This document shows, piece after piece, positions 2,780-35,959 of a stretch of DNA of 64,000 bases (position 1 is its first letter; each line of letters opens with the position of its first letter). Under the pieces are notes generated by a model, which was not told the origin of the DNA, did not search any database, and saw only the letters and a program-made list of their open reading frames with translations. Position numbers and translations under genes: made by a program. The stretch covers positions 124,001 to 188,000 of the forward strand of contig CAMPDV010000196.1 in the NCBI GenBank assembly GCA_946699065.1, in the 5' to 3' direction. This stretch comes from Loxodes magnus (lineage: Eukaryota > Ciliophora > Karyorelictea > Loxodida > Loxodidae).

Positions 2780-4127
2780 CTGATTTTTATTTGATGAGTA
2801 AATTTTTTGAACTGTTTTGTTTTCTGTTGGGAAAAATTGGCAGGTCTTATGACACTATCATTTGCATTTGAAGTCTTGGATGTTTGCTGTTTGCTATTTG
2901 CTTTGTAACCTCTTAATTAATATTAAAGATATATAATATCTTTATCCTTTTCCTGTAAGCAGTGATCATCATATGTAATTAATGTATATTTATAAAAATA
3001 GTTTTCCTGCATCTACCAGAGTCTTATAATCATCCGGATATGTTCTCTTCAAGATCTTTGATCTTCTAAATTCTCACTAAGGCTTAGAGATATAATCAGA
3101 TAATAAAAAATCTTGTATTCTCTATTTTTTAATTATTTTTAATTAAAATAGATTTCTACTATTATTATTATCAATGAAAATTTAAATAAATTTGATTTCC
3201 TGGATTTCAGCAAATTCCTTTTTTCATTTTTTATCAAAGTTGAAATCCTCAAATATTTTTTATAGTGATTGGATTCTTTATCTTTTTTTTTAAATGTGAA
3301 TGGTACTGCTTCTTCTCTAATCTTCTTTATCTTTCTGAAATTTGTTTTTTCTTTTTGTAGACTCTTATAAATTATCGTGAGTTAAACGATTTTAATTTAT
3401 TTTCGCTCTTAAAAAATTCTTCATTCTCTTTTGTCTTTTTATCATAGATTACGTTTTAAGAACTCCTTTACCATTTAAAATTTTTCAATTAAATTATATT
3501 AGGATTAATTAAGCATTTCTCCTAGTTATATCTTTATTTTGGGAAAGTTGCTATTTTAATTTTCACTTTTATTTTAGCTATTCAATATGCATATGAATTA
3601 TCTTGTTCTTCTGAAAATTTGCATTTTTGCTCGTCCTGCCAAATGATAGTTTGTTTCAATTTATCGCATTACTATATACTGACACATTGTCCATTTAGAT
3701 TATAGAAGTAAGAAATAAAATTTCTTATAGAATTTTTCGTTTTCATGCTGACAAAAATTTTATATCTTTTTATTTTCTTTTCTAGTTGCTCTTCTAGTCT
3801 TTTATTCTTATTTTTCGATATTATTTTCCTAATTTTTTTTCTTAATTGTTTTATTTTATCTGCATAATCTAAATAAAATTTAATTTTTTAGATGATTTTC
3901 GGAAGGATCTTCAAAATAGTCACTATCCTATCGCTAATCCCTGTTTGTATTGTGGAGAGTAAGAGGTATTTGAGTTCTTCTTTAAATGTATATTTTATTC
4001 TAGTATAAAGAATTACTATTTTAAAAGATCAGGAATTATGATTTAAGGTTTCTTATAAAATATTATTAGGAGTTATAAACTAATTTTCAAGTTCTTAACT
4101 AGAATATTTAAATTTATAAACAAGCAT
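2780..4127 (-). CDS. Unrecognised protein gene, lysine-rich, at least one short intron
   Basis: Reading down from an ATG at 4127 there is a protein-like frame, with helical stretches such as EELKYLLLSTIQTGISDRIV and RLEEQLEKKIKRYKIF, then CDKLKQTIIWQDEQKCKF. The frame changes once near 3340, and a 28-nt GT...AG intron at 3335-3362 restores it. It then continues through DFLLSDYISKPQWEFRRSK and LKRTYPDDYKTL. A second change near 3000 is repaired by a possible 64-nt intron (2953-3016), long for this genome and less certain; the protein then continues with ...YQLRGYKANSKQQTSKTSN. I recognise no domain. The 3' end is approximate, because no TGA follows closely in the last frame. It sits tail-first beside kinase copy 1, on the same strand. 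Confidence 0.55.
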
Positions 4128-4717
4128 TTCAAAAGAAGCTAAAGTCAAGAAGACTTAAATTATTAGAAATGAAAAAAGTAAAAATGGAATATGCAAAAGA
4201 TGAGAAGAAAAATTATGTATTGAAAAATTATGAGATCAAGACGGTATTAAAATATCAATTTAAATAGCTTTTACTAAAACCTATCATTGAATGAAGCATT
4301 TCTTGTAATTAAAGATATCAATAAAGTTTAAAATTTAATTTATTTGGATAAAGATCTTATATTATTTTTATATCATTTATCTCTTAAAGAATTCACACTT
4401 ATAGCAAATCCTCTATTAAGACTTAGGTGTTCATTTTTTTTTAATGCTCCTAAGCGGAAATCTGAAGCCTGCTTAAAATTAACTTACTCCTAAAGATCTG
4501 TAATTCAGCATCTTTCGTAATTGAATCACAAGCTATTAGTTTTAAGTTTAATATATCTTATTAAGAGCAATTCTTTATCTACTCTATTCTGCTCCCATCT
4601 ATAGAGTTAGCTAATTGATTAACTATATTAAGTAAAAAATATCCAATTAAAATAATTTTACCTTAGATATATTTTCTTATTATAAAAATTTATTAAAAGA
4701 ATGAAAAGTTAAATTTT
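4128..4717. other. Intergenic gap upstream of the 2.8-4.1 kb gene
   Basis: Spacer between two minus-strand genes. A lysine-rich open stretch on the plus strand near 4170-4290 looks weakly protein-like but has no start, domain or supported end, so it is not called. Confidence 0.3.
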
Positions 4718-7117
4718 TCACATTTCATTTCTAACTTTACTCTAGAAATAGGTGTTTTTCTACATTTTAGATATAAGCAGCTACTGTAGTTGTTCTATCT
4801 ATCTCCATTTTTCGTTATAAGTTTTCTCTTTAGTATCGTTATTTTCTTTAACATTTTAGTTATAAATTTCGTCTTAAATTGTCTTTTGAATTTAATATAA
4901 TGAGTATATTAGTTAATCTTCTCTTTGGAAATGTTCATAAGTTGTAGCAGTTTAGTTTAATTTCAAGAGAAGCTCTATAACTTATTTATTAAAGAGCACT
5001 TCAAAATTATTGTTCAAAGAGATATTAGTATAATGATAGAATGTTGATCTGAAAAGAATTTCTTATAGTACTTTCATTTACTATTTCCAATGAGTTAATT
5101 TTTTGTTACATTCAGTAATTAAAGTCTTTAAGTCTTTTTTATTTTATTCTTAGAGTAACTTTAGATCTTATTAATTTATAATTCATATATGAGCTTTCTT
5201 TATTGCATCAAATATAGAAGAGAAAGCATTTAAGAACACTAATATAGTAAATTATAAGTTGAAAGTAAACTCTCCATCTGTCTTTTAGAGCAAACTAACT
5301 TATTCAATTATTTTCAATATACATCTATAATTCCAACTTTCTTTTTTTATTTAATCTAAAATAATCTAAATACCTTCATTTACTTTATCTGAAGCTTAGC
5401 TTTTAATTGGATTTAAGAAAGATTATCCAAGTTTCTAGATAGGAATTTTATAAGGAAGATTGAAATTTATAGTGTTAATAGGTTAATTTGGAATTTGTGT
5501 AGTTTCATTTGATTAAATAGCGTAATTAGGATTTAAATTTGGTTACTATTAAATATTACATTAGAATTAACTTTCTTAAGAAACATTATAACTATCTGGC
5601 TTATTTTTCATTAAGGTTTACTATTAAATTCTAAATTCTTGGCTACCCTAAGATGTTGGTACATTTTGCATATAATTTATATTATACTATTATTATTAAT
5701 TTTCAAACTGTCTCTATCTTGTTTGACTATCAGATTAGTTTTATGTTGATATTTAGGATTAATTTTAGTAAGTTGCTTAATCTTCAGATTAAGTTTAAAC
5801 TTGAAAGGTATTTTAGTTGATATTAGGATTATATTAAAGTTAATAGTTTTGCTAGTTGTTTAAGTTTAGGCTTTATTGTTATTGGGTAGTTATATTTGGT
5901 TGTAGTTCAAATGCTTTAACAGTCTATGTTTAATACTATTATTAAACTTATTTAATTGGCTAACTCGAATTAATAGATTTTATTTAATTACTTCTTAATG
6001 GATCAGAGTCTAGTTATTAGTTATTTTATTACTAAGGGTTACTTACTTCTTATCTTATACTAAATTATTAGTTAACTAATATTTATGTTTATTCATTTCC
6101 TTATATAGGATAGTTCTTATTTCATTAGCTTCATTAGACTTAGCAGGTTTAATATTTTTTCTATAGCTATTATATCTAGAACTATCTATTTTAAGTAGTT
6201 TTCTTTTCTGTAGTATTTAGAGGTTAGTTCTAATTTTGTTATGGTTAGCTTATAATTTCTTATTTAGTAAATTAAGATTAAATATCTTTAAAAGCTCTAA
6301 TTCCTTCCTATATTCAAGGATGCTCATATAATTCGTAAATATCACTGCGACTATTTTAGTCTACTACTAGTACTTTTTGTAAGAAATCCTTGGCTTATTA
6401 GGATATTTATAAGGATTCTCAGGGTATTGTCTAATTTTAAAACAAGTTTTTAAGTCTTGAAATAGAAATTGCATTATAAGGAAAATCACCTAAAAGCATT
6501 TCATAAACAATTACTCCAAACGACCATAAATCTGCCTTGAAGTCATATTTTTAACCAAATAAAATTTCAGGAGCAGAGTATAAAGGGGTTCCGCATTATG
6601 TAATAGCCATTTCTCCATTTATCAGCTTTCTTGATAATTTCAAATCAGCTATTTTAAGAATTAATTAATTTTAGAAGTAATGAATCATTATATTTTCAGG
6701 TTTAATATCTCTATGAAGTATAAAGTTATCTCTTAAGAACTTTAGTCCATTTAGAATTTGAGCTGAAATCAATTTAACTTGAGATTCTTAGAGTGTCTTA
6801 TTATTTATTTTCATAAAGGCTCTCAGATCCCCTCCATTACAAAGTTCCATAACAATATGAAAATCATAGGTAGTTGACAAAAAATCAAAAATTTAAACAA
6901 TGTTAATATGATAATTTAACAATACCAATTCATTTTTTTCTAAATCAGGTCCAATCTGCTATTATTAATTTAGCTTACTTTTACTTATTTACTTTATAGC
7001 TACTTTATAGTTTTTTTAATTTGAGAATTATGTTTCAGCTTAATAAACAGCTCCAATTTATCCTTAGCTTAACCTTTTTTCTAAAATATAATCCCCTATT
7101 TTCCTGACTCTTATCAT
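4718..7117 (-). CDS. ULK/ATG1-like Ser/Thr protein kinase, copy 1
   Basis: Single open frame of 2400 nt (799 residues) from an ATG at 7117 to TGA at 4718-4720, with no intron needed. The kinase domain covers about residues 5-275: GDYILEKRLSQGQIGAVY, the VAIK lysine, [22 protein letters not shown] and DLWSFG. The arrangement is that of the ULK/ATG1 group by general resemblance, not proven. A Gln/Asn-rich low-complexity linker and a conserved helical C-terminal region follow. Oddities are that the magnesium motif reads DLK where copies 2 and 3 have DLG, and that the first glycine of the P-loop is Ser. Activity may be reduced. It carries only one unit of the 213-nt repeat expanded in its paralogues. 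Its flanks match those of copy 2, so the two are direct duplicates. Confidence 0.85.
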
Positions 7118-7689
7118 TTTTTAATTTATTAATTTTAAATTATGAAAATATATAAATTATACTCTTAGCAGCAGTAGTCTAAGAAATTAACTACTTATAA
7201 CCTATAAATTTAATTTTAAATTTATGTTTCATTATAGCACTCAATGACTTAAATATATTTGCTTAATATCTCTATAAATTACCTTGGTATTTATACTTGT
7301 TCTTCTAGTTTAATACTTTTCATTTAAATGGATGCATTTTTTAATTTATTAAATAGCTAAAATAAGAAAATTTAAGTGGAAAATTAAGTTTTAAGCAAAA
7401 GTTACTGAAAATAGGAAATAGGGATCTGTATTAAATTCTATGTATCTTACTTTAATTACTAGTATGGTTAAAATCTAAGGGATAGTAGATTAATAGCCTA
7501 AACTATTAATTATTTTAGTGATTCTATGTTTATTGAATCTTAACCTTCTACTTGCAATAATGAACTTAGAAACTACTGGTTCTGCAAGAAATAGGATGAT
7601 AAATAAAAAATCTCTGATTTTTCAAGAGAAAGTAAAAGCTAAAGAAAACGAAGTAGAATATTCTTCTATGTGCTAAATAAACAAAGATT
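7118..7689. other. 5' flank of kinase copy 1
   Basis: Promoter-side sequence of copy 1. It aligns by eye with 17631-18180 upstream of copy 2 (shared stretches around 7400-7450 and 17920-17980), which shows the duplication included upstream DNA. No further gene seen. Confidence 0.4.
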
Positions 7690-8090
7690 ATTATAAAGCG
7701 CGTAGTACCTCGTTGACGCGCAGCTCTTTTAGTATTAATATTTAATATTAAAAAAGTGTTCTCAAAAGCTTGATTTCATTCTATCCGTTCAAAGAGTCAC
7801 CTCATCTTCTCCAAATAGGGAGTCTTCTTATTAAAAATTATTCTTAAATCTTGAATCAAATGCTTCAGTCTTCTTGAATAAGGTCCAAATAAGAATTAGT
7901 TATTAAGTCATTAATTAGAAGGCCCGTCAGTCAAACTTTCATACTGTTAAAGAGAAGCCTCGGGGTAAGTTAGGCATGTCTATCCACCCTTCCCCGTAGT
8001 GGAATCTAGTGCGAGATTACTCGCAATGTAGCATTCATTACACTAGATTACTTACTAATTTTTTTGATGCGGCTGACATACATTTTATAT
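7690..8090 (-). mobile_element. Short non-autonomous element (SINE-like), copy A
   Basis: About 400 bp, clearly the reverse complement of 35094-35513 along its whole length. The two copies share, for example, GTCAGTCAAACTTTCATACT on opposite strands and a run of matches around 7810-8060. Read on the minus strand, its 3' end is the hairpin also found at the LINE 3' end, followed by a degenerate TTTA-type tail at 7680-7690. It interrupts sequence that is continuous upstream of kinase copy 2 (about 18180-18260), so it was inserted after that duplication. Confidence 0.75.
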
Positions 8091-9379
8091 TATTCTTAAT
8101 AACGAAATTTTATAGTATATTATTGCAAAAGCATGGAATTAATATAAATAGTGAAAAAGCAAATGAAAAGCATTAAAGATTCATAATTGAGATTAATCAG
8201 TTTGGAGACAATAATATATAAAATGAAGACGAAGGCGAAAAAACACAGTTATCATCTGTCTAATACAGAACATATAATCTTAGGAAAATAAAATAAGTGA
8301 GAAACTTTCAGAAATTAGCTATGAAATAGTTAATTTATTATTTGTTAAGCCACTGTAATCAATTATTATTATATATATTAAAAAATGCTTAGATTCAAAA
8401 TGGGTTTTTATACCGCCTCCTCAGAGTAGGAAAGAAAACCTGAAGCACTTCCTTCGACCACGTCTTCGCTTAATAAGTCCACTTTTTTATTACGAATGGA
8501 AACCAGACTCATAACACAAGCACTCAGACTACACAGAACCAAATTTACTGATCCAACAAACATGAAATTATAAAACGTTCATCGGGAAAAGGTATTCCAT
8601 ATATCTATGATTGGACAGGTTTCAATAAAAGGAGAAATACAAAATAAGAAAGGAATTAATTGGTAACAAAAGTACACAAGCAAAGCAGTAATTTGACAAA
8701 AAAATTAACAACTTATTTAGCTAACGTCTCTGAAGATTAAATGGTAAGAGTCTACTAAAATGCCTATTTATATCTATCGTTATGGAGTTCACAGTTTATT
8801 TTAACCATTATCTGGAAAAAACTGGGTATAAGAGAAAAAGGTCATAGTCTAAGAAGAGATAAAAGTGTTTAGATATTCAATTTGGAGCGAATAAGAGAAA
8901 GTAGTTGCAAAATTTATTGTTAAATAAAAAGAATAGTATATTTAGTCTTCAACAATGAAGAAAGATACTCACAATTCGCTTAATTCAGGGAATGAACATT
9001 CTAAGGCGTTAGATTTCCTATCTGACCAAGAAACTAATTAGAATACTTTGCATTCATAACTACCTAGTATACTTCATAATAAGCAAATATTCAAACAAGA
9101 AGGAAGTAATGAAAATAATGAAGTAATATGGAAAACCTAGAGGAGAGGTTTAACATATATACCCAAACACTACAATGCTAACAGGTAGCAGTGTAGTGAG
9201 CCTAAATTTATAGGATATAGACGAAGTGAAGTGACACCAGTAGCAATAGACATGAACAGAAACTAAATGAGGATACAACGCCTAGTAAATTTTATTTACT
9301 GTCTATGCAAATTGAAAGGGCACACAGACCAATAATGCAGAAGGGTGAAAGCAGCAAAAAGGAAAAAAATACATACAAG

Positions 9380-10270
9380 AGAATTGGGGGTGCTTGAAGG
9401 AGAAGTTAAATTAACAATTAACAAACCAGAATTAAAAGCAAATCAAGCGAATAAGAGGATAATTGAAGAAGGAGAATAAATGGCTTTAGAGGAAGCAAGA
9501 GAAGAAGAGAAGGAAATAAAACGAGGAGAATAGAAAAATAATTAAAACAACTAAATAGTTAAAAAAATTTTTTTTTATGTTAAATGAATAAAATAAGAAT
9601 TATTTTTTATCAAAATGGAATTGGATATATGCAAGGCGGAGGGACAGAGAAATGCTCTAAGAGATAAATAAAATTTAAAGTAATTAACTAAATAATAAGA
9701 TATAATATAAAATAGATCTGAGAAAAGGATGGGATAAATGATAGTAAAATTGCTATATACCCTAACAAAAGAAATAAGAAACGAACAAAATAGCATAATG
9801 GAGTATGTAAAGAAAAGTGTAAATAAAGAAAAAAAATAAATAGAACAAGCTCAAGAAAAAAAAGAATAAAATGCAAATAAAAGCGAGAAGTAAGTTGCAA
9901 ACTGAAACAATCTTTAATTAGAATCTACTATGCTAAGAAATCTAAATACAAAAACGAACAATTACCCAACAATAATTAATAGGAAAATGCAAAAGAAGAG
10001 GAATGGATAGATAAGAAGAAAAATATAATTAATAAGGAGAAAAAGATAAAACAGGGAAAAAAATTCATCATGAAAAGAATATGGAAGTAGAAAACGATAG
10101 ATAAGAAGAAGGAAAGCCGGGGAAGGAAAATGAATAAAAAGAAGAAAGTGGTGAAGAGGAAGCAGAGAGGATAGGCGAAAAAAAAAGAAGAATAATAATA
10201 ATTCATAAAAATAGGGATAACAGATGTTAGGGGAGTTAGAAGGAAAAAAGAGATACTAATCAAATTCATA
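9380..10270 (+). pseudogene. LINE ORF1-like coiled-coil region
   Basis: Highly charged Lys/Glu/Arg-rich translation in the usual ORF1 position before the endonuclease. It includes the stretch GEQMALEEAREEEKEIKR near 9470-9530, which would form a coiled coil. No zinc knuckle or RRM was recognised, so the assignment rests on position and composition only. Confidence 0.4.
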
Positions 10271-10289
10271 ACTCAAAAAAGTATCCAAT

Positions 10290-10880
10290 TAATGGCAATA
10301 AAAGATATTTAGATTGGAGACTAAAAAATATATGTAATATAGCAGGATTAAAAGCTTAATTAATGTGGAGTTAAAAAAAGGGAAAGGAGTAGCATTCTAT
10401 ATTAGAAACGACATATGTAAGGATATTAGAGTAAAATAAAATGAAATGAACCAAATGATGGTTTTTGGAGGAACGAGAGTGATGGTCATTGAAATAATGT
10501 GAAAATTGGCAGTAATAAATATTTATGCACCTGTTGCAAATGGCAACGAATAATATGAGCCATTCTATAATTTAGTGAATTAATTTAAAATATAAGCAAT
10601 AGTATAAGAACTTAATGCAATGATCATAGAAATTAAAATACGAATATAGAGAAATGATTACCAAAGAAAAAAAAACTCAGTGCGAAAGAGAATGCTGCAG
10701 TTCATGGAAAAGGATAAGTTAATATGCCTAGATCCAACTGAAATAGGTACTTTTGTTCACTAAAACAATGAATATAAAATAGAATACTTTTTAATTGAAA
10801 AGATAACGAAAGAAAAGGTGATAAAAAATGATTTTATTACTCATGCGTAATACTGGACCAAAGATCCTGTATTATATAGG
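10290..10880 (+). pseudogene. LINE apurinic-type endonuclease domain (EEP family)
   Basis: The translation contains GKGVAFYIRNDICKDIR followed by VMVIEI and AVINIYAPVANG, the conserved core of LINE endonucleases (variants of GVA..vr..., NvYaP). The expected GDFN motif is degraded (about 10600-10630, reading NAMI). A later segment matches the usual TFVH/TW region (about 10745). In intact elements this domain nicks the target DNA to prime reverse transcription. Confidence 0.75.
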
Positions 10881-11539
10881 TAAAGATTGGTAAATTAGTT
10901 ATAAAATCATAAAAGATAGCAAAAATAAATTTCCTATTATTAAAGAAAAAAGAAATCTAAAATTAATTTGAAAGATTTATGCAAGAAAATGTCTAAGAAA
11001 AAGAAATTGATAGCCTAAACGGTACATAGACTTATAAATGACTAAGAAAAAGATATAAGAAGGAGTTTTTATGGTATGTGGAATAGTTAAAACATAAAAC
11101 TTTAAGATATATAAATACTCAGAAACAACAAAATAGTGTAGCAAAATTTTCAGAAAATGCAGCAAACAATTAAAATAAAATGTAAAGAACAACGAAGAAA
11201 TAAATGAAAATCAATAAACCGAGAATTATAGAGAATACCAAAAAAAAAAGACAAGAATACATTTAATCAAGAAAAAAAGATAAAAGAAACTAACCTAACT
11301 TATTTATGAACAATATAAATAAAGGAAACTTGGTAGAAATGTGAAAGAAACTAAAAAGTCTGCTTAATAGAAAAAAAAATCAATGAGTACTCTTATCAAA
11401 ATAAGATATTAAGATTTTCAGGAAAGAATGATAGTAGTTATATGAAGATGGGATAATACATTGCCAACTAAATTCTTAAACAAGAGGAAAATAGTGGTAA
11501 ACGAATACAAATTTGAGAAAACATTAACTAATTTGCGAA

Positions 11540-13250
11540 ATGAAAAAAGCAGGACCTGATGAAATATAAGTAGGAATAATTTTAGCAGGTGGTAAAAAAT
11601 TAATAGAAGTAACATGCAAAATGATAACTAATATGATTTAAGAGGGAATAATACCTTAGGAGATGAAATAAATAAATAAATTTGATATAGAGCGCGTACC
11701 ACTCTCGTTGGTGCGCAGCTCTTTAAAAAATGTTTCATATTGACAAAAATGTTTGTTACTGATAAAATTATCAGATACTGATAAACCTTGTTCAATACTG
11801 GTATAAGTTCAGAATACTCGTATCTTTAATACTTGTTGGAGGTTCAAGGACATGGAAGGGTTGCGTCTCATTGCATCAACAAAGCAGAGGACGACAATTG
11901 TCAATTATGGGTACTTAAATTCCCCACTTCTGATGAAGCTCGCAAAAATAATTTCCTTTTATTTCCAGAATTAAAAACTAAAGCAAGCCAGTGCCGAAGC
12001 TTGAATTAGCAGGTGTCTCGAGGCCAAGCCAAAGCAGAGGAAGACATAAAGTAGATTATGGGTACTTAGCTTCCCCAACCTCTGATGAAGATGTCCCTTG
12101 TTGTTCACCTTCGAACAAATATATGATAAATATAATAAAACATAATATTAATATACAAAAAAAGGAGGATAGATGAACCCGATGAACTGTAGACCAATCT
12201 CTTATTGAATCATGCTTTAAAAATTGTAGACGCATGAATTTCTAACAATTGTAATGGTATTTACTTAATGATGAAAGAGAATACTAATATGGTTTCAAAA
12301 AAGAAAAATCTTGCGCACTATTAATCTTTATTCTAAGAACAGTATAGGAATGATCAATGTGGAACAAAAAGATGTTTTGTGATATTTTTTGATATTAAAA
12401 AAGCCTATGACTTGTGTAAAGAAAAGATATATAATAAATCCTAAAAGATCTAAAAGTACTGGAATAGATAATTAAACCTCTAGTAAACTTCTACTGTGAA
12501 GAAGAAATTAAACTGAAAATTAATGAAAAAATGGCAAAATCATCCGCGACAACTAAAAGGGCTAAAATAGGGAAGCATAACGTCATCAAGATTATTTAGC
12601 TTGATAATAGAAAGATTTCTCCATAGCTTGGAAGATCAAAAGCTAGGAATTACGATTGACTATAAAAGTAAAGAGGATTGAACATAAGAAATGTATGCAG
12701 GATGTTTTTTATACACAAATGACCTACCCTTAATAAGTAAATGGGAATAATTAGAGGAAGTAATCGAAAATTTAACATAATGGACAGAAAAGTACAAAAT
12801 GAAATTGCAGATAAAACAAAATGAATGATATGAAAAGCAGCAGTAAATAGTAAGTTGAGAAAATATTGGAAATACTATCGAGGAGGGAAATTTAATGATC
12901 GAAAGAGTAACGACCTTTTAGTACCTAGGTCATATAATAGAAGAGAACATCAATTTTGAAAAGCACATGGAGAATAGACTAGAATCAGCATAAAAAATTT
13001 AAGCTTGAATACTGGGAAAATAAGCAATGAATAAGGGATTAGTATCATATAATGCAGGAATAATGAAAAAAATTTCGTAAGCTCAGTTTTCAGTTATGGG
13101 ACAGAAGTAATCCCATAATGCGAATAATTTGTAGAAAAATAAGTGATGGAGCAATTAGAAATAATATAGAGAAGACCTTTACAAACAATCATAGATGCCC
13201 CTTTTTAAGGGCAAAATTAAATGTTAGTATATGAACTGTTGTTTTTGAAA
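11540..13250 (+). pseudogene. LINE reverse transcriptase, split by a short element
   Basis: Before the insertion the translation gives KKAGPDEI, LAGGKKLIEV and MIQEGIIPQEMK, the usual start of a LINE reverse transcriptase. After it (from about 12160) come NPMNCRPIS, then motif A FFDIKKAYD (12386-12412), and a GLK-G-like segment near 12550. At 12694-12705 the catalytic YADD position reads YAGC, so both aspartates are lost. Thumb-like sequence follows (WTEKYKMKLQI, FQYLGHIIEENINF). Several frame changes separate these blocks. The order and motifs fit non-LTR elements of the endonuclease-bearing type. Confidence 0.82.
11661..12115 (-). mobile_element. Short non-autonomous element (SINE-like), copy B, nested in the LINE
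   Basis: Lies between the LINE segments QEGIIPQEMK and NPMNCRPIS, where intact LINEs have no gap. Read on the minus strand it ends in the shared hairpin (11687-11721) followed by a TTTATTTATTTATTT tail (about 11667-11682). Its body differs from copies A and C. It contains an internal repeat: about 65 bp at 11878-11945 recurs at 12020-12090 (shared GATTATGGGTACTTA-type core and CTCTGATGAAG). Coordinates of the 5' end are approximate. Confidence 0.7.
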
Positions 13251-14413
13251 TTTAAACATTACTCTGATAGAAAACGTTGAGATTAAGAGGTAGATTAATA
13301 GGTAACTAAGGAAAAACATTAGACAGATTAATGTACGACCTAAGTAAAGAAGAGAAATTTATATTTGAATAATATTGCATGGCAATAAAATTAGAATTAA
13401 AAATTGAGAGCAAAGATATATTTATAGATGATAGTAATAATAATTAAAAAGGGAAGAAAAACATTAATCATGTAATTTGAGTATATAGAGTATAAATAGA
13501 AGATAGAGAAAGAATGGAGTAAATATAACAACCCTACATTATAGAAAAACTTGATTTGATGAATATTTAGTAGGACCACCCTATTACCTGAGATACAATA
13601 AAAATAGAAAAGAAGAAATATGCTACATATTTAGAATAAGAACGAGATGTACTGGGAGCTAGGATTGCTTAAAAGAAAGACACTTAGTTATAGCAAGTCA
13701 ATGCTCTTTTCTAATGATTCAAGAGAAAATGAAAGGCATATCAAAGAAAAATGTTCAGAATACAAAGAAGGAAGATAAATATGTATTTGAAATCTAAGAG
13801 AATAAAAGATGATATTATAACAAGAGTAATTAAAATTGATGAGATAAAGATTATAATTTAAAAGCATTAAAAATATTTGCCAATGTTTATAATTGAAGGA
13901 AGCAATTCTTGCAGTTATAGATATCAAAAAACTCTTCTAGTTTAAAATTTAAAAATTTGATATCTAAGAGCAATTGGAGTAGAGAGATAAGGAATGGAAC
14001 TATATAATATAATTTGAAGTATGAGAAATCGAGAAATTCATTAGAACCTAAGAAGAGTAGAAAAGAACTAAAGCTGCTATGATAATAAAAGATAATTTCA
14101 AAAATATACTAGAAAAAAAGAAAAAGGATACATAGAAAAGAAAATTGAATGAAAAAAATAGGAAAAAACTATAGAGCAGGAAAAATATAAATTTTATGAG
14201 TTTTATAAAAGCTTGATTAAGAAAAAAGTTAGAAACAAAAATTGGCAATAAATCTAAGAAAAAATAAAGGAAGCTTGCAATAAAGAACTAATAAAGCGTA
14301 GACAGAAGAACAAGAGATAATGAAGTGGAAAATGATGAAGATTGTAGTTAATAAGAGAAGAGAATTTATCTGAAGGCTTACTTGAAGATATGGACATATT
14401 TTGAAATATGGAA

Positions 14414-14476
14414 AGAGCTGCGCACCAACGAAGTGCTACGCTCTCTATAATCAATTTTATTTATTTATTTATTATT
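14414..14476 (+). repeat. LINE 3' hairpin plus TTTA microsatellite tail
   Basis: The inverted halves AGAGCTGCGCAC and GTGCTACGCTCT can pair with a short loop, followed by TATAATCA and then repeated TTTA. The same module, with small changes, ends the elements at 7690, 11661 and 35513. In stringent-type LINEs such a 3' hairpin is the binding site of the reverse transcriptase. Confidence 0.75.
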
Positions 14477-14512
14477 CATAATTTATTAAAAAGAAAGATA
14501 AGTTTAAAGGTT

Positions 14513-17500
14513 TCACATTTCATTTAAAACTTTATTCTAGAAATAGGTGTTTTTCTACATTTTAGATATAAGCAGCTACTGTAGTTGTTCTATCTATCTC
14601 CATTTTTCGTTATAAGTTTTCTCTTTAGTATCGTTATTTTCTTTAACATTTTAGCTATAAATTTCGTCTTAAATTATCTTTTGAATTTAATATAATGAGT
14701 ATATTAGTTAATCTTCTCTTCGGAAATGTTCATAAGTTGTAACAATTTAGTTTAGTTTCAAGAGAAGCTCTATAACTTATTTATTAAAGAACAATTCGAA
14801 GTCTTTGTACAAAGGCTTAAAAGCATTATGCAAAACTGATGATCTGAAAAAAACTAATTATTGCTCTTTCATTAATTTTTTCCAAAGAGTTAAATTTGAG
14901 TAACATTAGATAATTCATCTATTTAATTCTTGTTTGCTTTTCTCTTAGAGTAGCATTAAATTTTATTAACTAGTAATTCATATATGTGTTTTCTTTATTA
15001 CTTCAAAAATAGAAGAGAAAGCCCTTTAGTACACTAATAAAGAAAATTATAAGTTGATTGTAAAATTTCTATCTATCTTTTAGAGCAAACTACCTTATTC
15101 AGCTATTTTCGATACACTTTTATAACTCCAAGTTTAATTCTTTATTTAATCTAAAATAATCTAAATATCTTTATTTACTTTTTCTTGAATTTAGTACTAA
15201 ACTGGGTCTGAACGAGAAAATACGATTTTCTAGATAGATCTTCCTTAAGGAATATTGTAATTTAGAGTGTTAGATGGTTAGCTTTGATTTTATATAGTTG
15301 TATTTGATTAAATAGCGTAATTAGGATTTAAGTTTTGCTGCTATTAAATATTCCATTAGGTTTACCTTTCTTAAGAAAACTTAGGATTAGTTGGCGGAAT
15401 GTTAAATTAGACTTATTATTAAGTTTTAATTTCATAATTAGCTTAAGATGTTGGTACATTTTGCATATAATTTATATTATACTATTATTATTAATTTTCA
15501 AACTGTCTCTATCTTGATTGACTATCAGATTAGTTTTACGCTTTTACTTAAATTTAATTTTAGTAAATTGCTTAGTCTTTAATTTAAGTTTAAACTTGAA
15601 AGGTATTTTAGTTGATATTAGGATTATATTAAAGTTAATAGTTTTGCTAGTTGTTTTAATTTAGGTTAAATTGTTATTGGGCAGTTATATTTGGTTGTAA
15701 TTCACATGATTTAATAGGCTATGCTTAATATTATTATTAAACTTATTTAATTGATTAATCTTAATTAAGAGGTTATATCTATTATGTGCTTATTTACTGA
15801 TTCTATACTTGAAAGGTATTTTAGTTGATATTAGGATTATATTAAAGTTAATGGTACTAATTTTTTAAGGGCTTTATTGTTATTGGATAGTTATATTTGG
15901 TTGTAGTTAAAATGCTTTAATAGGCTATGTTTAATATTATTATTAAACTTATTTAATTGATTACTCATAATTAAGAGGTTATATTTATTATGTGCTTATT
16001 TACTGATTCTATACTTGAAAGGTATTTTAGTTGATATTAGGATTATATTAAAATTAATGGTTTTACTAATTGTTTAAGTTTAGGCTTTATTGTTATTGGA
16101 TAGTTATATTTGGTTGTAGTTAAAATGCTTTAATAGGCTATGTTTAATGTTATTATTAAACTTATTTAATTGATTACTCTTAATTAAGAGGTTATATTTA
16201 TTATGTGCTTATTTACTGATTCTATACTTGAAAAAGTTGATATTAGAATTATATTAAAATTAATAGTTTTGCTAGTTATTTAAGTTTAGTCTTTACTGTT
16301 ATTGGGTAGTATTATTCTATTCTTAATTCTAATTGAGCGCTGGTTATTTGTTTAAAGTTAAAATTAGGAAGTTTAAACTAATTTTCTTATTAGGCTTGTA
16401 ATTATTTTAAGTTTAGAATCTGACAGTTTTAATTTTACTTTAATAGTTATTGGCTTAATTTTATATGTTAGTTAGCTGGATTCTGAATAGGTTATGTTTA
16501 ATACTGCTATTATTAAACTAATTTAATTGGCTAACTTGAACTAAGAGCTCTTGTTTAATTACTTTTAATGGATCAGGTCTAGTTATTAGTTATTTAATTA
16601 CTAAGGATTAGTTACTTCTTATCTTATATTAAATTATTAGTTTATTTACTATTACATTTGCTTATTTCCTTATATAGGGTTACTCTAATCTCCATATTAA
16701 TTCTAGAACTATCTATTAAGAGGTATTTAGAGGCTAGTTCTAATTTTGTTATGGTTAGCTTATAATTTCTTATTTATGAAATTAAGATTAAATATCTCTG
16801 AAAGCTCTAATTCCTTCCTATATTCAAGGATGCTCATATAATTCGTAAATATCACTGCGACTATTTTAGTCTACTACTAGTACTTTTTGTAAGAAATCCT
16901 TGGCTTATTAGGATAGTTATAATGCTTCTCAGGGTATTATCTAATTTTAAAACATCCTTTTAAGACTTGGTATCGAAGTTGCGTTATAAGGAAGAATACC
17001 TAAAAGCATTTCGTAAACAATTATTCCAAATGACCATAAATCTGCCTTAAAATCATATTTTTAACCAAATAAAATTTCAGGAGCAGAGTATAAAAGATTT
17101 CCACACATTGTAGAAGCCATTTCTCCATTTGCCAGCTTTCTTGATAATCCTAAGTCAGCTATTTTAAGAATTAATTAATTTTAGAAGTAATGAATCATTA
17201 TATTTTCAGGTTTAATATCTCTATGAAGTATAAAGTTATCTCTTAAGAACTTTAGTCCATTTAGAATTTGAGCTGAAATCAATTTAACTTGAGATTCTTA
17301 GAATGTGTTATTATTTTTTTTCATAAAGGCTCTCAGATCCCCTCCATTACAAAATTCCATTACAATGTAAAAATTATTACTAGTTACTAAAACATCAAAA
17401 AGCTAAATAATGTTAATGTGATAATTTAACTTTATCAAGTTATCTTTTTCTAAATTTAATCTAATCTGCTATTATTGATTTATCCTACTTTTACTTATTT

Positions 17501-17630
17501 ACTTTATAGCTACTCTACATTAATCTTATAAAGTTTTATCGAATATTCAAGCTGAATAAACAGACCCGAATTATCCTGAACCTATAACTTTGTCAAGCGT
17601 ATAATCACCTACTTTTTTCTATTGAGCCAT
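14513..17630 (-). pseudogene. ULK/ATG1-like protein kinase, copy 2 (decaying)
   Basis: The kinase domain starts at an ATG at 17630 and is readable to about 16800: [42 protein letters not shown] and DLWSFG, then HPWIQ at the end of the domain. The activation-segment [10 protein letters not shown] of the other copies is [10 protein letters not shown] here, losing the P+1-loop Thr-Pro. The Gln/Asn-rich tail holds four units of the 213-nt repeat. Two units each lack 7 nt (near 15855 and 16235), so the total of 3118 nt is not a multiple of three and the conserved C-terminal helix falls out of frame. It may still make a truncated kinase. The original stop (TGA, 14513-14515) is preserved. Confidence 0.8.
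15590..16310 (-). repeat. 213-bp coding minisatellite in kinase copy 2 (four units)
   Basis: The marker GATATTAGGA or its variant recurs at 15614, 15827, 16033 and 16239, giving spacings of 213, 206 and 206. Copy 3 has three units at exact 213 spacing and copy 1 has one. Confidence 0.8.
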
Positions 17631-17950
17631 TTTAAGCTATTAAATTTAAATTATAAAAAGTGAAAATAGAGGAAATAAATAGTAGTAAATTAATAAATTA
17701 ACTTATAAACTAGAAATTTAATTTTAAACTACTGTTTTATTACTTAAACTCAATATCTCTATTCATTACTAAGTCTTTAGAAGTTAGCTTCTTATTTATA
17801 ATTATTCTTATATTTTCATACTTTTTTCATTTAATGCTGCTATTGTAAACTATTTAGCTAGCTTATTTTAAGAAAATTCTTAAGCTAAAAATTTATGTTT
17901 TAAGCAGAAGTTCCTTATACTAGGAAATAAGGGATTGTATTAAGATGCTA

Positions 17951-19632
17951 TAATATCTTGCTTGATTACTTGTAAAATTATACTTAAAAAGAAAGTAAAT
18001 AAATTATTTAATTCTCATTTTCTTTTAGTGATCCTACGAAGCATTGAAACTTAAAATTCCAACTTGCAGTAAAGAGCAAAAGAGAATTAGAATGTTCTGG
18101 CTCTGCAGAAAAATGGGATACTTAAAAGAAACTGGAGATTTTCAAGAGAAAGTAAAAGGTAGATAAAATAAAATAAGTTAGTATGCTATGAGAATAATAA
18201 TACAATTCTGATATAAACTATTATAAAATAATTTTAGAGCGCTAATTTATATAAATAATGAAAGACGCAATAAACACTATTTCATATATCAGATTAATTT
18301 GATTCGAGAGAACTAATATATGAAGATGAAAAAAACAGAAACTAACAAGTATCTTAAGATAAGAAAATTAATTTCAGAAAAAAAGTAAAGAGAAACTATA
18401 GAAATAAGCTTTAAAGTTTTACTTTATTGATGTGGGAAGCCACTTTAATAAATTACATTATTATTATAAAAGAAGCAATTTATTCTACTTATTTATTTAG
18501 ATTTAGCAATGCATTTAATTTAGAAAAAGTAGAAATCATTAATTTAAGAGGTTTGATATGATAGTGAAGAAGTATATAAATGATTAACTTACTAAAATAA
18601 CTAATTTAATATATATTAGAGATAAAAAGGTAAATAACTAAATAATAATTAGATAAATATATAAAAATAAAGAAAACTAAGATATTTATATCGTTTAGAT
18701 TTAAATCACTAAGATAGAATGATGTAATAAGTAATAGGCAATTTTAATATTTCAGCTACAAGAGCAAAATTATCTAATTCTATTTATTATTAAGTAAATT
18801 GATAAAAAAATCAGAGAATTCAAGTTCTCAATTTCATTATCAAAATTTGATTTAATTCAATTGCTTAATAAATAAACAAAAATGTATATAAGTATCATAA
18901 CTGCGAATAGGAATGTATCAAGAGGAATATAAATGTCTGATTACAAAGATAAATCTAGTTCATATGTCAGCTCACTTTATTATTATAATTTAAATGAGAG
19001 AAATTTCTATAGATAAAGAATAAAAATAAAAGGGTGGTCAATTAATTATGAAATTTATAAAGTATGCTTAAAAAATAAAAAAGATGCTTATTTTGAAACT
19101 ATCAGTGAGGAAAGACTGCTAATTAGATGAAAAATAGAATTTCTCTGAATTCTTTTTACAAAAGTAGCTAAAAGATTATAATATTACATAAAGGAGAAGG
19201 TATCAACATTAAGAAGTTATAAAAATCTTTAATAAAAAGATTTTTCCCTTCATTAAAACCTTTAAATCCGTAAATATAACGAAGGTTATACCACTGGTAG
19301 AATACATTTCTAAAAATAAGCTTTTAAGAATATGATCTTTAAAATGGTAAATAAATACCTTGAATGGTTCAAAGATATTATTATAATAGTAGTTTAAAAA
19401 AAATTAAAGTTTTAAAAAGGAACATAAACAAAAGTAACTTAAAGAAGAATTTGACATAATAAAATTTTAGATTAAAGAATCTTAAAAAAAAAGATTATTT
19501 TTTAAGCTATATCAAATACTAAAATATTGTGATATTTAAAGATTGATAAAAAATGAAAATTGAAATATAATTAATGGAAAGATAGCATAAATTAAATAAA
19601 TGTAATTAGTAAAGTTTGACTACATGGATAAA
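17951..19632. other. Intergenic; possible LINE endonuclease relic at about 18740-19010
   Basis: 17951-18480 matches the region upstream of kinase copy 1 (8100-8400) in places. Between about 18740 and 19010 the plus strand gives a GNFNISATRAK segment (compare GDFN of EEP nucleases) and, in another frame, LVHMSAHFIIII (compare the SDH-containing last strand). This could be an old LINE fragment, but no reverse transcriptase motif was found. Confidence 0.3.
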
Positions 19633-29642: not shown

Positions 29643-31231
29643 TTATAGATGGGATTTATTTAATAATTATAATGCTTTAGTTAACTATTTGTCTTATATT
29701 TATTAGCAAGTTACCTGAAATTTATTTATATATAGATATTGTAAAATTAAGTTTATATTTAGCAAATTATGATAGATGCTTATCAGTTAAATTTGAATTC
29801 TCAATTTGTTTATTTAACGATTCCTTTGATTGAAAGTTAAATAATAAAATTAAAAAAATAGACTCATACAGTTGACTTGTTTATAAGTACTACAGAATTA
29901 TATATCCAAACAATCTACTTTTACTACTGAGATTTAATAAAATCTTCATAATATCAATTTATATACCAAGCAATACTAAGAATTTATGACTCATTTGATT
30001 ATAAAGTGTCTTATATTTTCTGAATCTAATAAGTATTTAGTATATAAGAGATTTCTCTCTTATTGATATCTCATATTTTTACTTATAAGAAGTCAATTAC
30101 TTGTTAAGGTTTTTGATTATCATGTCTATTATTTTTAGCTATCAGTTTCTACTTTCCATTAAGTTTGAACTAGTCAATCCATCCTAAATAGAGAAATAAA
30201 ATACTTATTTAAGAGATAGGAAGTTTGATATCTTTTAGTTATATAAAGATAATTTAAACTTGCTAAAGTTTGGTTAATTAACATTTAAATTATACTATGA
30301 TTCAGCGAATTTTAGCTAACGTTTGATTATAATTATATACACTACAAAGCTAGTTTTCATTTCATTATCTCAACAGTCAATTCTCTTATTCCTGCTTTTT
30401 ATTTACTCCAAGCTAGAAAAATTAACTTTTTAATGAGACATTTTACTATAAACTCTCCTTTTTGTCTATAAAGCTTTAATTACTTACTTCTTTAGTTTTT
30501 AGGAAATGAAAAGAAAAAATTCTAAAAATAAAGTTCTAAAGTATTATTATATTAGCTTTAGTTAGCTAAGCATACAATTGTTTTAATTTAAAAGCTTTGA
30601 TTGATCAAAGAATTGTTAACTTACTTTTGATTATTATCAAATTGTGCTAAATTCACTTTGAAAAGAAATTATGATAGCCAGTCTAAAGTTTAATTAGAGA
30701 CTTTTTATTTAGAAAGAACTAGCTTTACCATAGAATTATTAAGAATAATTAAATTAAATTGCTTCTTTTAAAAGTGAAACTGCTAAATCACACCTTCTGA
30801 GAAGATTATTCTGAAAGTGAATAATTCTTGATCATAGTGAGATGTTTTATACTAACTTGGTGGAATTAATGCTTTTGTTTACTAAGAAAATGAAAATTAA
30901 TGCTTTATTTCATATTCCAAATTTAAGTTCCCTTTCTCAAAAAATGCTAATATTGGATTCTCTTAACATTTCTATTAAGCTTCTAGAGATAAATGATATG
31001 CTTATCTGGTAATTTTCAATTATATCTATATCTTTTATTAATTAAGCTCTTCTTTAGACTATGCTAAGAATTTAAACTTAATTAGTTATTCCTGATTTAA
31101 AAGATCTAAGCTAAAACTATAAGAAGTACTTAAATAAGATTAAAGTGAATTATATTTAGAATAGAGTTTGCTAAATACTTTAAAGATAAGCCTTTCTATT
31201 ACAAACCTATTTTATATATTCCTTTATATTA
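29643..31231. other. Intergenic between coiled-coil gene and inverted repeat
   Basis: AT-rich, with no convincing frame. It ends where similarity to the left repeat arm begins, near 31232. Confidence 0.35.
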
Positions 31232-31537
31232 GATCCCTTATTTCCTAGTATAAGGAACTTCTGCTTAAAACATAAATTTTTAGCTTAAGAATTTTCTTAA
31301 AATAAGCTAGCTAAATAGTTTAAAATAGCAGCATTAAATGAAAAAAGTATGAAAATATAAGAATAATTATAAATAAGAAGCTAACTTCTAAAGACTTAGT
31401 AATGAATAGAGATATTGAGTTTAAGTAATAAAACAGTAGTTTAAAATTAAATTTCTAGTTTATAAGTTAATTTATTAATTTACTACTATTTATTTCCTCT
31501 ATTTTCACTTTTTATAATTTAAATTTAATAGCTTAAA

Positions 31538-34500
31538 ATGGCTCAATAGAAAAAAGTAGGTGATTATACGCTTGACAAAGTTATAGGTTCAGGATAATTC
31601 GGGTCTGTTTATTCAGCTTGATCATTCAATAAAACTTGATAAGTTTAATGTAGAGTAGCTATAAAGTAAATAAGTAAAAGTAGGATAAATCAATAATAGC
31701 AGATTAGATTAGATTTAGAAAAAGATAACTTGATAAAGTTAAATTAGCACATTAACATTATTTAGCTTTTTGATGTTTTAGTAACTAGTAATAATTTTTA
31801 CATTGTAATGGAATTTTGTAATGGAGGGGATCTGAGAGCTTTTATGAAAAAAAATAATAACACATTCTAAGAATCTCAAGTTAAATTGATTTCAGCTCAA
31901 ATTCTAAATGGACTAAAGTTCTTAAGAGATAACTTTATACTTCATAGAGATATTAAACCTGAAAATATAATGATTCATAACTTCTAAAATTAATTAATTC
32001 TTAAAATAGCTGACTTAGGATTATCAAGAAAGCTGGCGAATGGAGAAATGGCTTCTACAATGTGTGGAACTCCTTTATACTCTGCTCCTGAAATTTTATT
32101 TGGTTAAAAATATGATTTTAAGGCAGATTTATGGTCATTTGGAATAATTGTTTACGAAATGCTTTTAGGTATTCTTCCTTATAACGCAACTTCGATACCA
32201 AGTCTTAAAAGGATGTTTTAAAATTAGATAATACCCTGAGAAGCATTATAACTATCCTAATAAGCCAAGGATTTCTTACAAAAGGTACTAGTAGTAGACT
32301 AAAATAGTCGCAGTGATATTTACGAATTATATGAGCATCCTTGAATATAGGAAGGAATTAGAGCTTTCAGAGATATTTAATCTTAATTTCCTAAAAAAGA
32401 AATTATAAACTAACCATAACAAAATTAGAACTAGCCTCTAAATACTACAGAAAACAACTCTTAAAATAGATAGTTCTAGAATTAATAGCTATAGAACCAA
32501 TATTAAAGCTGCTAAGTCTAGAATTAATATGGAGATTAGAGTAACCCTATATAAGGAAATAAGCAAATGTAATAGTAAATAAACTAATAATTTAATATAA
32601 GATAAGAAGTAACTAATCCTTAGTAATTAAATAAATAAAACTATAACTCTAATCCATTAAGAAGTAATTAAACAAGAGCTCTTAGTTCAAGTTAGCCAAT
32701 TAAATTAGTTTAATAATAGCAGTATTAAACATAACCTATTCAGAATCCAGCTAATTAATAGGATATAACTAACATATAAAATTAAGCCTGAATACAGAAC
32801 TATTAAAGTAATAATTAAAACTGTCAGATTCCAATAACTAACTAAAATAATTAATAATTACAAGCCTAATAAGAAAATTAGTTTAAACTTCCTAATAATT
32901 TAACTTAACCAATAAACAAATAACCAGCGCTCAATTAGAATTAAGAATAGAATAATACTATCCAATAACAGTAAAGACTAAACTTAAATAACTAGCAAAA
33001 CTATTAACTTTAATATAATTCTAATATCAACTAAAATACCTTTAAAGTATAGAATCAGTAAATAAGCACATAATAGATATAACCTCTTAATTAAGAGTAA
33101 TCAATTAAATAAGCTTAATAATAATATTAAACATAGCCTATTAAAGCATTTTAACTACAACCAAATATAACTATCCAATAACAATAAAGCCTAAACTTAA
33201 ACAATTAGTAAAACTATTAACTTTAATATAATTCTAATATCAACTAAAATACCTTTAAAGTATAGAATCAGTAAATAAGCACATAATAAATATAACCTCT
33301 TAATTATGAGTAATCAATTAAATAAGTTTAATAATAACATTAAACATAGCCTATTAAAGCATTTTAACTACAACCAAATATAACTACCCAATAACAATAA
33401 AGCCTAAACTTAAACAATTAGTAAAACCATTAATTTTAATATAATCCTAATATCAACTTTAATACCTTTCAAGTTTAAACTTAAATTAAAGACTAAGCAA
33501 TTTACTAAAATTAAATTTAAGTAAAAGCGTAAAACTAATCTGATAGTCAATCAAGATAGAGACAGTTTGAAAATTAATAATAATAGTATAATATAAATTA
33601 TATGCAAAATGTACCAACATCTTAAGCTAATTATGAAATTAAAACTTAATAATAAGTCTAATTTAACATTCCGCCAACTAATCCTAAGTTTTCTTAAGAA
33701 AGGTAAACCTAATGGAATATTTAATAGCAGCAAAACTTAAATCCTAATTACGCTATTTAATCAAATACAACTATATAAAATCAAAGCTAACCATCTAACA
33801 CTCTAAATTACAATATTCCTTAAGGAAGATCTATCTAGAAAATCGTATTTTCTCGTTCAGACCCAGTTTAGTACTAAATTCAAGAAAAAGTAAATAAAGA
33901 TATTTAGATTATTTTAGATTAAATAAAGAATTAAACTTGGAGTTATAAAAGTGTATTGAAAATAGCTGAATAAGGTAGTTTGCTCTAAAAGATAGATAGA
34001 AATTTTACAATCAACTTATAGTTTTCTTTATTAATGTACTAAAGGGCTTTCTCTTCTATTTTAGAAGTAATAAAGAAAACACATATATGAATTAATAGTT
34101 AATAAAATTTAATACTACTTTAAGAGAAAAGCAAATAAGAATTAAATAGATGAATTATCTAATGTAACTCAAATTTAACTCTTTGGAAAAAATTAATGAA
34201 AGAGCAATAATTAGTTTTTTTCAGATCATCAGTTTTGCATAATGCTTTTAAGCCTTTGTACAAAGACTTCGAATTGTTCTTTAATAAATAAGTTATAGAG
34301 CTTCTCTTGAAACTAAACTAAATTGTTACAACTTATGAACATTTCCGAAGAGAAGATTAACTAATATACTAATTATATTAAATTCAAAAGATAATTTAAG
34401 ACGAAATTTATAGCTAAAATGTTAAAGTAAATAACGATACTAAAGAGAAAACTTATAACGAAAAATGGAGATAGATAGAACAACTACAGTAGCTGCTTAT

Positions 34501-34555
34501 ATCTAAAATGTAGAAAAACACCTATTTTTAGAATAAAGTTAGAAATGAAATGTGA
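31538..34555 (+). CDS. ULK/ATG1-like Ser/Thr protein kinase, copy 3 (intact)
   Basis: Uninterrupted frame of 3018 nt (1005 residues), ATG 31538 to TGA 34553-34555. The kinase domain covers about residues 8-275: [25 protein letters not shown] (Lys near 43), [10 protein letters not shown] (near 137), DLGLSRK (near 158), [28 protein letters not shown] and HPWIQ. The overall pattern resembles ATG1/ULK kinases, which act in autophagy and, in the ULK3/Fused branch, in cilia; which branch this belongs to is not shown. About 500 residues of Gln/Asn-rich low complexity follow, including three 71-residue repeat units. The C-terminal helical domain of about 220 residues is also kept in copy 1. Trp is coded by both TGG and TGA. 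Of the three copies this is the one with all kinase motifs and an open frame. Confidence 0.88.
32955..33480 (+). repeat. 213-bp coding minisatellite in kinase copy 3 (three units)
   Basis: The marker AATATCAACT recurs at 33023, 33236 and 33449, exactly 213 nt (71 codons) apart. The first two units are nearly identical and the third is diverged. The units encode Gln/Asn-rich sequence. Confidence 0.85.
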
Positions 34556-34560
34556 AACCT

Positions 34561-35093
34561 TTAAACTTATCTTTCTTTGTAATACATTACTTTAATAGAA
34601 ATAATTTAATTAAATATAATTAAGTGAGCTAGTTTAAATTTATAAATGTGAGTAAATAGAGTAAATAAATAATCGCTCTAAATAAATTAAACAAACAGCT
34701 TTATTATCCTAATTAGTTTAACCCATAAAAATACTCTAGAATTTCTTAAGTTCCAAACTCTTTTAATAAGCTTTAGAAAAGCTAATCTTAATTTAAATTT
34801 AGTAGATATAAATTTAGTATTATATTTTAAAACTTCATTAACTATTAACTCTCTTCCTTTATTAATAAAGCTTTCTACTAACATAAAGGAAGCTAAGTAG
34901 GAATAGTAGGTAGTTAAGTGAAATAAAATTGCTAGAATCATCTTTTGCTAAGCTTTAAATTTCCTTTTTTTGCTTAATTTTGAATAAGTTATAGTCAATC
35001 ATGCTCATTCTAGTCCTATATCTTATAATACCGCTTATCACCCATCCTCTTTTACGGCTTATCAGATCTGTAAGTTATTATTTATTATTTATA
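34561..35093. other. Intergenic between kinase copy 3 and short element C
   Basis: AT-rich. The minus strand has an 84-codon stretch free of any stop in the standard code (34687-34941). It lacks the TAA/TAG glutamine codons typical of genes here and shows no domain, so it is not called. Confidence 0.35.
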
Positions 35094-35513
35094 AAATGGA
35101 TGTCAGCCACGTCAGCCAAACTAGTAGGAAATCTGGTGCAGTGTATACTGCATTGCGAGTAATCTCACACTAGATGCCACCACGGAAGGGTGGATAAGCT
35201 CCTTTGAGACATACCTAACTTACCCCAAGGGTTCTCTCTAGCAGTATGAAAGTTTGACTGACGGACCTTCTAATTACCGACTTAATAACTGTCTCTTATT
35301 TGGATCTTATTCAAGAAGATTGAAGCATTTGACTCAAGATTTTAGAATAATTTTTAATAAGAAGATTCCCCATTTGGAGAAGCTGACATGACTCATCGGA
35401 CCTCAAGAATTTTAACAAGAAACATGAGAACATTTTCCTTAATATTAAATATTAATATTGGAAGAGCTCCGCGCCAATGAGGTGCTACACGCTCTATAAT
35501 CATTTTTATTTAT
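35094..35513 (+). mobile_element. Short non-autonomous element (SINE-like), copy C
   Basis: About 420 bp, more GC-rich than its surroundings, matching copy A (7690-8090) end to end in reverse complement. It starts near GATGTCAGCCACGTCAGCC and ends with the hairpin GAGCTCCGCGCC/GGTGCTACACGCTC (35464-35494), then TATAATCA and a short TTTA tail. No open frame and no clear pol III boxes were recognised, so the family assignment rests on size, repeated occurrence and the tail shared with the LINE. Confidence 0.75.
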
Positions 35514-35959
35514 TATAAGCGTGCTTTAAATAAATAAAATACTTTTATACTTCTCATTTATAAAAAAGCTAAATTTCCATAGATATAAAACTAAAGATTA
35601 TTTATAAGCTATTTTAGCAAATGTAATAGCATTTGCAATAGTACTAACTATTGGGTAATTTCTACTGATTATTTTAAGACTTAGCTTTTAATTACTTAGT
35701 CATAGGTTTACATATTAAACAGCTTATTTTAATTTCTTATATTACTTTTCCTTTATTTATCTGGAAATTCAAAATTAATATAAATAGGAGCTTTAGTTAA
35801 ATCTTTAATTTAGCTTTATAATACTTAAAGAAATATCCTTTGGAATTACAAGTAATTTTAGAGTATTATGAAATAAAGTTTCTTATTGCATAATGAAGAC
35901 AATCTTTAAGATCATTGCAGTGTATTAATATAATAGATTAAGTAATAAATTTTGGATTA

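Follow-up and report, generated by a model that had tools for sequence, protein, structure and literature searches.

Features of the locus

We analyzed a window of 64,000 nucleotides from the karyorelict ciliate Loxodes magnus (assembly GCA_946699065.1, contig CAMPDV010000196.1, positions 124,001 to 188,000). It contains a LINE on the plus strand. When the region 8100-10200 was searched, 34 of the 39 non-self best matches began at 8350-8380, 21 of them at 8362-8366. The LINE (8363..14476, about 5.7 kb without a short element, B, nested in it) was therefore taken as full length; RVT_1 and homology to loci L060 and L121 also support this annotation. It ends with a hairpin, which in the window copy folds as 5 + 4 bp (14414..14444, from pattern match and folding), followed by a TATAATCA spacer and a tail of TTTA repeats (14445..14477, from the sequence), both on the plus strand.

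Element B (11667..12124, minus strand) lies in the opposite orientation to the LINE, with its hairpin at 11689-11722 and its tail at about 11667-11680; related LINE copies without B were found (L101, L121, and L060). Two other short elements belong to one family, AC. Element A (7674..8087, minus strand) has a decayed hairpin that no longer folds like the others; the element does not occur in a diverged paralogous repeat (about 18168-18244). Element C (35092..35514, plus strand), supported by genome-wide matches to its body, includes a hairpin at 35463-35495 and a tail. A diverged repeat unit of several kb is present in three copies (4667-8365, 14479-18455 and, inverted, about 31231-34629) and contains a 206-213-nt tandem repeat (15591-16316 and 32951-33589). 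The LINE is located where the first two copies meet, and the first of them carries element A as an insertion.

The first-pass annotation of the window had proposed that the LINE and elements A, B, and C end with a common hairpin, spacer, and TTTA tail. All four endings were found, on the strands that it gave: the LINE (14412, plus), A (7729, minus), B (11724, minus), and C (35461, plus). These are exactly the window matches to a 20-nt core pattern with three or fewer mismatches, and 100 shuffles gave none. Downstream of each hairpin come a spacer resembling TATAATCA and the TTTA repeats; the version in element A is TTTGTTTATTTA. The span given for A (7690-7710) covers only part of the A hairpin, which extends over about 7695-7729.

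Genome-wide distribution of the 3' end

The assembly searched has 705,730,643 bases in 7,843 contigs. The core GAGCTGCGCNNCAACGA has 4,814 exact copies (2,449 forward and 2,365 reverse) and the reversed-pattern control has none. In a listing with one row per hairpin, TTTATTTA was located 15-35 nt downstream of 2,197 of the 2,449 forward-strand cores; at equal distance upstream it was found in 8 rows, which represent 6 distinct hairpins only. The corresponding downstream figure for the reverse strand (4,141) was not used, since one hairpin can enter it with several tail ends. A separate pattern, composed of the 3' arm, the spacer, and the tail, occurs 4,639 times and its control never, and by eye a TTTA-type tail follows every one of the 30 core matches listed first. 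The proposed position of the hairpin, at the 3' end beside the tail, was thus confirmed both in the window and genome-wide, and neither a mainly 5' location nor a lack of TTTA enrichment was seen. The core pattern under-counts family AC, because it fixes the 5' arm, in which the usual AC form differs.

Short families with different bodies

Classified by the body upstream of the hairpin, 70 sampled core copies consisted of 35 B, 12 copies of a further family, D, 9 AC, 9 LINE, and 5 with no recognized body. The sample combines the first 30 copies (B 15, D 6, AC 4, LINE 2, none 3) and 40 further copies (B 20, LINE 7, D 6, AC 5, none 2). The sample comes from the ten first contigs, as places are listed in contig order, and represents the 72 first-listed matches minus two tandem duplicates (C7:364281 and C7:398320), with other local duplicates retained. 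These two and C7:330039 (all in G000) are core matches with the same AAC variant, about 34 kb apart; they probably represent a tandem segmental duplication, and C7:330039 is a D copy. Among the five copies with no recognized body, L025 retains about 15-20 nt of the LINE ahead of the hairpin, and in L023, L026, and L125 a TTATTA sequence is located a few nucleotides from the hairpin.

Among the 100 3'-arm matches listed, 4 have a TCA spacer. The two of these that were fetched are 87% alike over 166 nt and represent a fourth short family, E; relatives of these occur in L002, L049, L057, and L052 (the last cut off by the locus end). The first-pass annotation had counted at least two SINE bodies (A/C and B); different bodies on one tail were indeed found, and their number is at least four (AC, B, D, and E).

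The short bodies are about 300-450 nt long, and first-look candidates number in the thousands. A query with the AC body only gave 39 further genome matches listed beyond C, with 94-95% identity, and the copies listed for the D body only were 90-92% identical; 40 matches were scored in each search, so that these counts are lower bounds. Among the best 20 matches fetched for each family, the TTTA tail was present in 20 of 20 for both. The hairpin was present without large deletion in 19 of the 20 AC copies (in L067, part of the 5' arm is missing) and was found in 19 of the 20 D copies (the 5' arm is lost in L097). Distinct flanks, judged by eye, number about 18 among the 20 AC copies and about 11 among the 20 D copies; as the fetched matches are the best-scoring ones, old copies are under-sampled. 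Young copies of B were also observed, 39 listed matches being 97-98% identical to one copy in a search that was used for identities only.

Strong similarity of the B, AC, and D consensuses to each other and to the LINE is confined to the last 48-75 nt, besides a 63-nt module common to B and D. Beyond the tail, nothing in the window LINE or L121 matches them better than at about E 0.02 over 19-32 nt. Locus L060 contains a whole separate AC copy behind its LINE.

The 63-nt module occurs twice in B (consensus 36-98 and 193-253) and once in D (consensus 163-221), and one compensatory pair was noticed by eye (CAGAGG/CCTCTG versus CATAGG/CCTATG). Its folds hardly beat shuffled sequences (z -0.82, -0.47, and -0.39), and we therefore make no structural claim for it. 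A hammerhead core, considered by eye on the reverse strand of the module, was rejected: it is not kept in D and has no Rfam match in 6 loci. At about 324-436 of the B consensus there is a row of ATCAGTATTGAACATTT-like units that resemble the LINE stretch just ahead of the hairpin; these were possibly amplified from a captured LINE end.

As for tRNA ancestry, ARAGORN found none in 30 loci. The Rfam search of 6 loci, all outside family E, gave only three matches, each below the gathering threshold (E 0.25-2.5), and no box B with two or fewer mismatches was found in the B, AC, or D consensus. Strings like box A with three mismatches occur three times in B, seven times in AC, and once in D, counts that come with no chance control, and all three consensuses contain internal runs of T5-T8. 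In view of these negative results and the T runs, we call the short elements SINE-like; strict SINE status is not established for them. A diverged ciliate Pol III promoter in the short elements is conceivable.

Coding capacity of the LINE

The window LINE is decayed: it has no endonuclease match, and its RVT_1 match, located at about 12301-12936, has E 6.5e-8. Locus L060 has a weak endonuclease match (PF14529, E 0.007). An intact LINE of the clade had been named as something to look for. A better copy, L121, encodes both domains in one frame under genetic code table 27: an endonuclease (PF14529, E 7.1e-12) and a reverse transcriptase (PF00078, E 7.2e-32), with a weak zf-RVT match below the cut-off (0.029) in the same frame. 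The best PDB match of L121 is human L1 ORF2p (8sxt, E 1.3e-20, residues 259-841), across the endonuclease and reverse transcriptase. The reverse transcriptase frames in the genome hold TAA, TAG, and TGA as sense codons, as predicted by table 27 (PMC11441545).

Copies of the LINE are 5'-truncated at varied points, and their 3' end and tail are constant. For example, L101 is 5'-truncated and is 98.2% identical to L121 over 2,351 nt. The search for LINE 3' ends, from which 19 ends with about 16 distinct flanks were fetched, is not an independent test of the hairpin because the query included it.

Insertion sites

Of 24 short copies, 19 have TTATTA in the 35 nt that precede their 5' end; of 552 control windows taken from these loci, 41 have it. 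TTATTA resembles the TTTA tail, and such a site fits the tail. Ahead of the window LINE is AATTATTATTATATATATT; at LINE truncation points, TTATTA was present in two of five (L004 and L033) and absent in three (L101, L005, and L013). In the paralogous repeat without element A (about 18168-18244), AATAATAATAC is found near the join. In L011, L060, and L002, elements of different families stand in head-to-tail order, each further element beginning within the TTTA tail of the one before it.

Direct repeats at the insertion ends score barely higher than controls (mean 8.9 in 24 copies versus 8.2 in 192 controls), and a score of 9 or more was obtained for 12 of the 24 copies versus 34% of the 192 controls; the short B copies L012, L018, L019, and L027, which have a different 5' end, were left out of this comparison. 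The only clear target-site duplication, in L014, is 22 nt long with one mismatch and is partly tail. Nested copies and element-free sites, inspected by eye, show TTATTA-like targets and at most a few duplicated bases.

Fold and conservation of the hairpin

The commonest LINE form of the hairpin has 12 bp arranged as 5 + 2 + 5, with a one-base and a three-base bulge, an AACGA loop, and -16.1 kcal/mol. The loop is AAUGA in AC, with a G-U pair, and AUUGA in two fetched copies of E; the hairpin is one base longer in B and in most D copies. Compared with 200 shuffled sequences each, the folds of L121 (z -3.05, 0 of 200 as good) and the window B (z -3.43, 1 of 200) are stable, those of C (z -1.89, 11 of 200) and the window LINE (z -1.72, 9 of 200) less so, and that of A is not (z -0.40, 60 of 200). 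Folding energy thus makes a hairpin structure plausible.

Covariation in the stem, another check proposed in the first-pass annotation, gave no support. In 70 unique sequences, obtained from 102 hairpins after exclusion of L097, which has no alignable hairpin, both sides of a pair had changed in only 1 of 837 cells. Pairing was observed in 766 of the 837 cells versus a mean of 766.7 after shuffling of columns, with 379 of 500 shuffles as good, and RNAalifold found no structure on the gapped alignment. Nor did conservation set the hairpin apart from the bodies, as within families it decays like the body. The AC hairpin is 94.6% identical to its own consensus (versus 94-95% for body matches to the query) and the D hairpin is 90.5% identical (versus 90-92% for the body); the value for the LINE hairpin (97.8%) is not comparable, as the query held the hairpin. 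Equal decay of hairpin and body is expected of dead copies.

Origin of the common 3' end

We consider it highly probable that one LINE and at least four short families (AC, B, D, and E) are copied by the LINE reverse transcriptase in a stringent-type system. A stringent-type LINE with short parasites should leave copies that differ in body but agree in 3' end and polarity, are 5'-truncated, and lie at sites fitting the tail, with a partner of the same 3' end that codes for the enzyme (PMC4176376). The features observed here, namely shared 3' ends, different bodies, polarity, truncation, the TTATTA site, reverse transcriptase and endonuclease domains, and thousands of copies including young ones, suggest at the sequence level that the short elements borrow the copying enzyme of the LINE. 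The LINE/SINE partnership of stringent type in the first-pass annotation therefore stands as regards one LINE lineage, different short bodies, and a common 3' end; strict SINE status and conservation of the hairpin as a structure, for which no covariation was found, are not established.

The LINE of Loxodes is of the APE type, and its minimal 3' end consists of the stop codon TGA, 10-13 nt, the hairpin, TATAATC, and (TTTA)n. In the proposed mechanism, the LINE enzyme would recognize the RNA of hairpin plus tail and nick TTATTA-like DNA. The UUUA repeats could then pair with the complementary nicked strand and prime reverse transcription there (target-primed reverse transcription). The outcome would be 5'-truncated copies, some consisting only of hairpin and tail, and the short elements would depend on the LINE.

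An alternative is that the LINE is of the relaxed type, for which the (UUUA)n tail suffices, and that the hairpin is kept by common descent or for RNA stability or 3'-end formation. The lack of stem covariation, the decay of the hairpin at the rate of the bodies, and TTATTA sites that fit pairing by the tail alone are all in line with this. However, hairpin and tail are both kept in four short families and in both LINE subfamilies seen here, and a tail-only system should also leave TTTA-tailed elements without the hairpin, a point to be read with the fact that most copies here were collected via the hairpin; we regard a relaxed-type LINE as unlikely. Still less probable is an origin of the short elements from LINEs by deletion, as opposed to capture of a LINE tail by independent sequences. 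Although B has 62 nt in common with L121, back to the stop-codon region, no similarity to the bodies of B, AC, and D was found outside the tail in L121, in L060, or along the entire window LINE.

Insertion of elements within or beside the tails of other elements (L011, L060, and L002) might also be explained if the hairpin were an insertion target, or an unrelated motif beside which elements land. However, the hairpin lies behind each body, on its strand and at a nearly constant distance, TTTATTTA is upstream at 6 distinct hairpins only, and related sites without B or A are also without the hairpin; this explanation is hardly credible. The stringent/relaxed model draws largely on vertebrates, and the probable stringent-type system places a LINE/short-element partnership with a common 3' hairpin far from these, in a ciliate.

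Relation to known systems

UnaL2 of eel has short terminal repeats, as observed here. Eel UnaL2 with its SINEs and the zebrafish ZfL2 LINEs (PMC4176376) likewise have a 3' tail common to LINE and short elements, with a stem-loop that in Loxodes is plausible on folding energy, and an ORF2 with endonuclease and reverse transcriptase. Unlike these systems, the Loxodes host is a ciliate with the table 27 code; there are several short bodies, none with a recognized tRNA or Pol III head; and the repeats are TTTA, the sites TTATTA, and the stop codon lies 10-13 nt from the hairpin.

The Paramecium germline likewise has LINEs of the APE type that carry short repeats at the 3' end, solo-ORF1 elements of which some end in (TAAA)n, and putative SINEs or non-autonomous partners (PMC5405496); in the passages considered, no common 3' hairpin, as in Loxodes, is stated. 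The main text of the L. magnus paper has neither the word "SINE" nor "hairpin", and reports that the genome is not extensively edited (PMC11441545). In a limited literature search (titles and starts of abstracts), no report of a ciliate LINE/short-element pair of this kind was found, nor any paper on a karyorelict SINE. At least four bodies on one tail, in thousands of copies, some 98% identical, constitute a natural series on the requirements of the enzyme.

A stop codon beside the hairpin

In Loxodes, UGA is a stop codon only near the 3' end of the mRNA. On the reverse strand of L121, the one copy in which the frame of the TGA was checked, the last in-frame TGA is at 4081 and the GAGC of the hairpin is at 4097, with 13 nt between them; the other TGAs in the LINE frame are read through. 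In 38 of 40 LINE 3' ends, several of them duplicates, a TGA is located 10-13 nt ahead of GAGC, and the other two pieces begin after it.

Host 3' UTRs are short, with a mean of 53 and a median of 41 bp (PMC11441545), and stop codons of ambiguous ciliate codes have been proposed to act as stops near transcript ends (PMC4967479). We tentatively raise the idea, which we think rather doubtful, that the hairpin and UUUA tail might do double duty, as a handle for the reverse transcriptase and as a stand-in for, or short spacer to, the poly(A)-bound end that makes UGA a stop. If so, the short elements would parasitize a signal that the LINE also needs for its translation. The LINE could serve as a test case for context-dependent stop codons. 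The distance between the TGA and the hairpin differs between the LINE subfamilies: it is 13 nt in L121 and 10 nt in the other subfamily.
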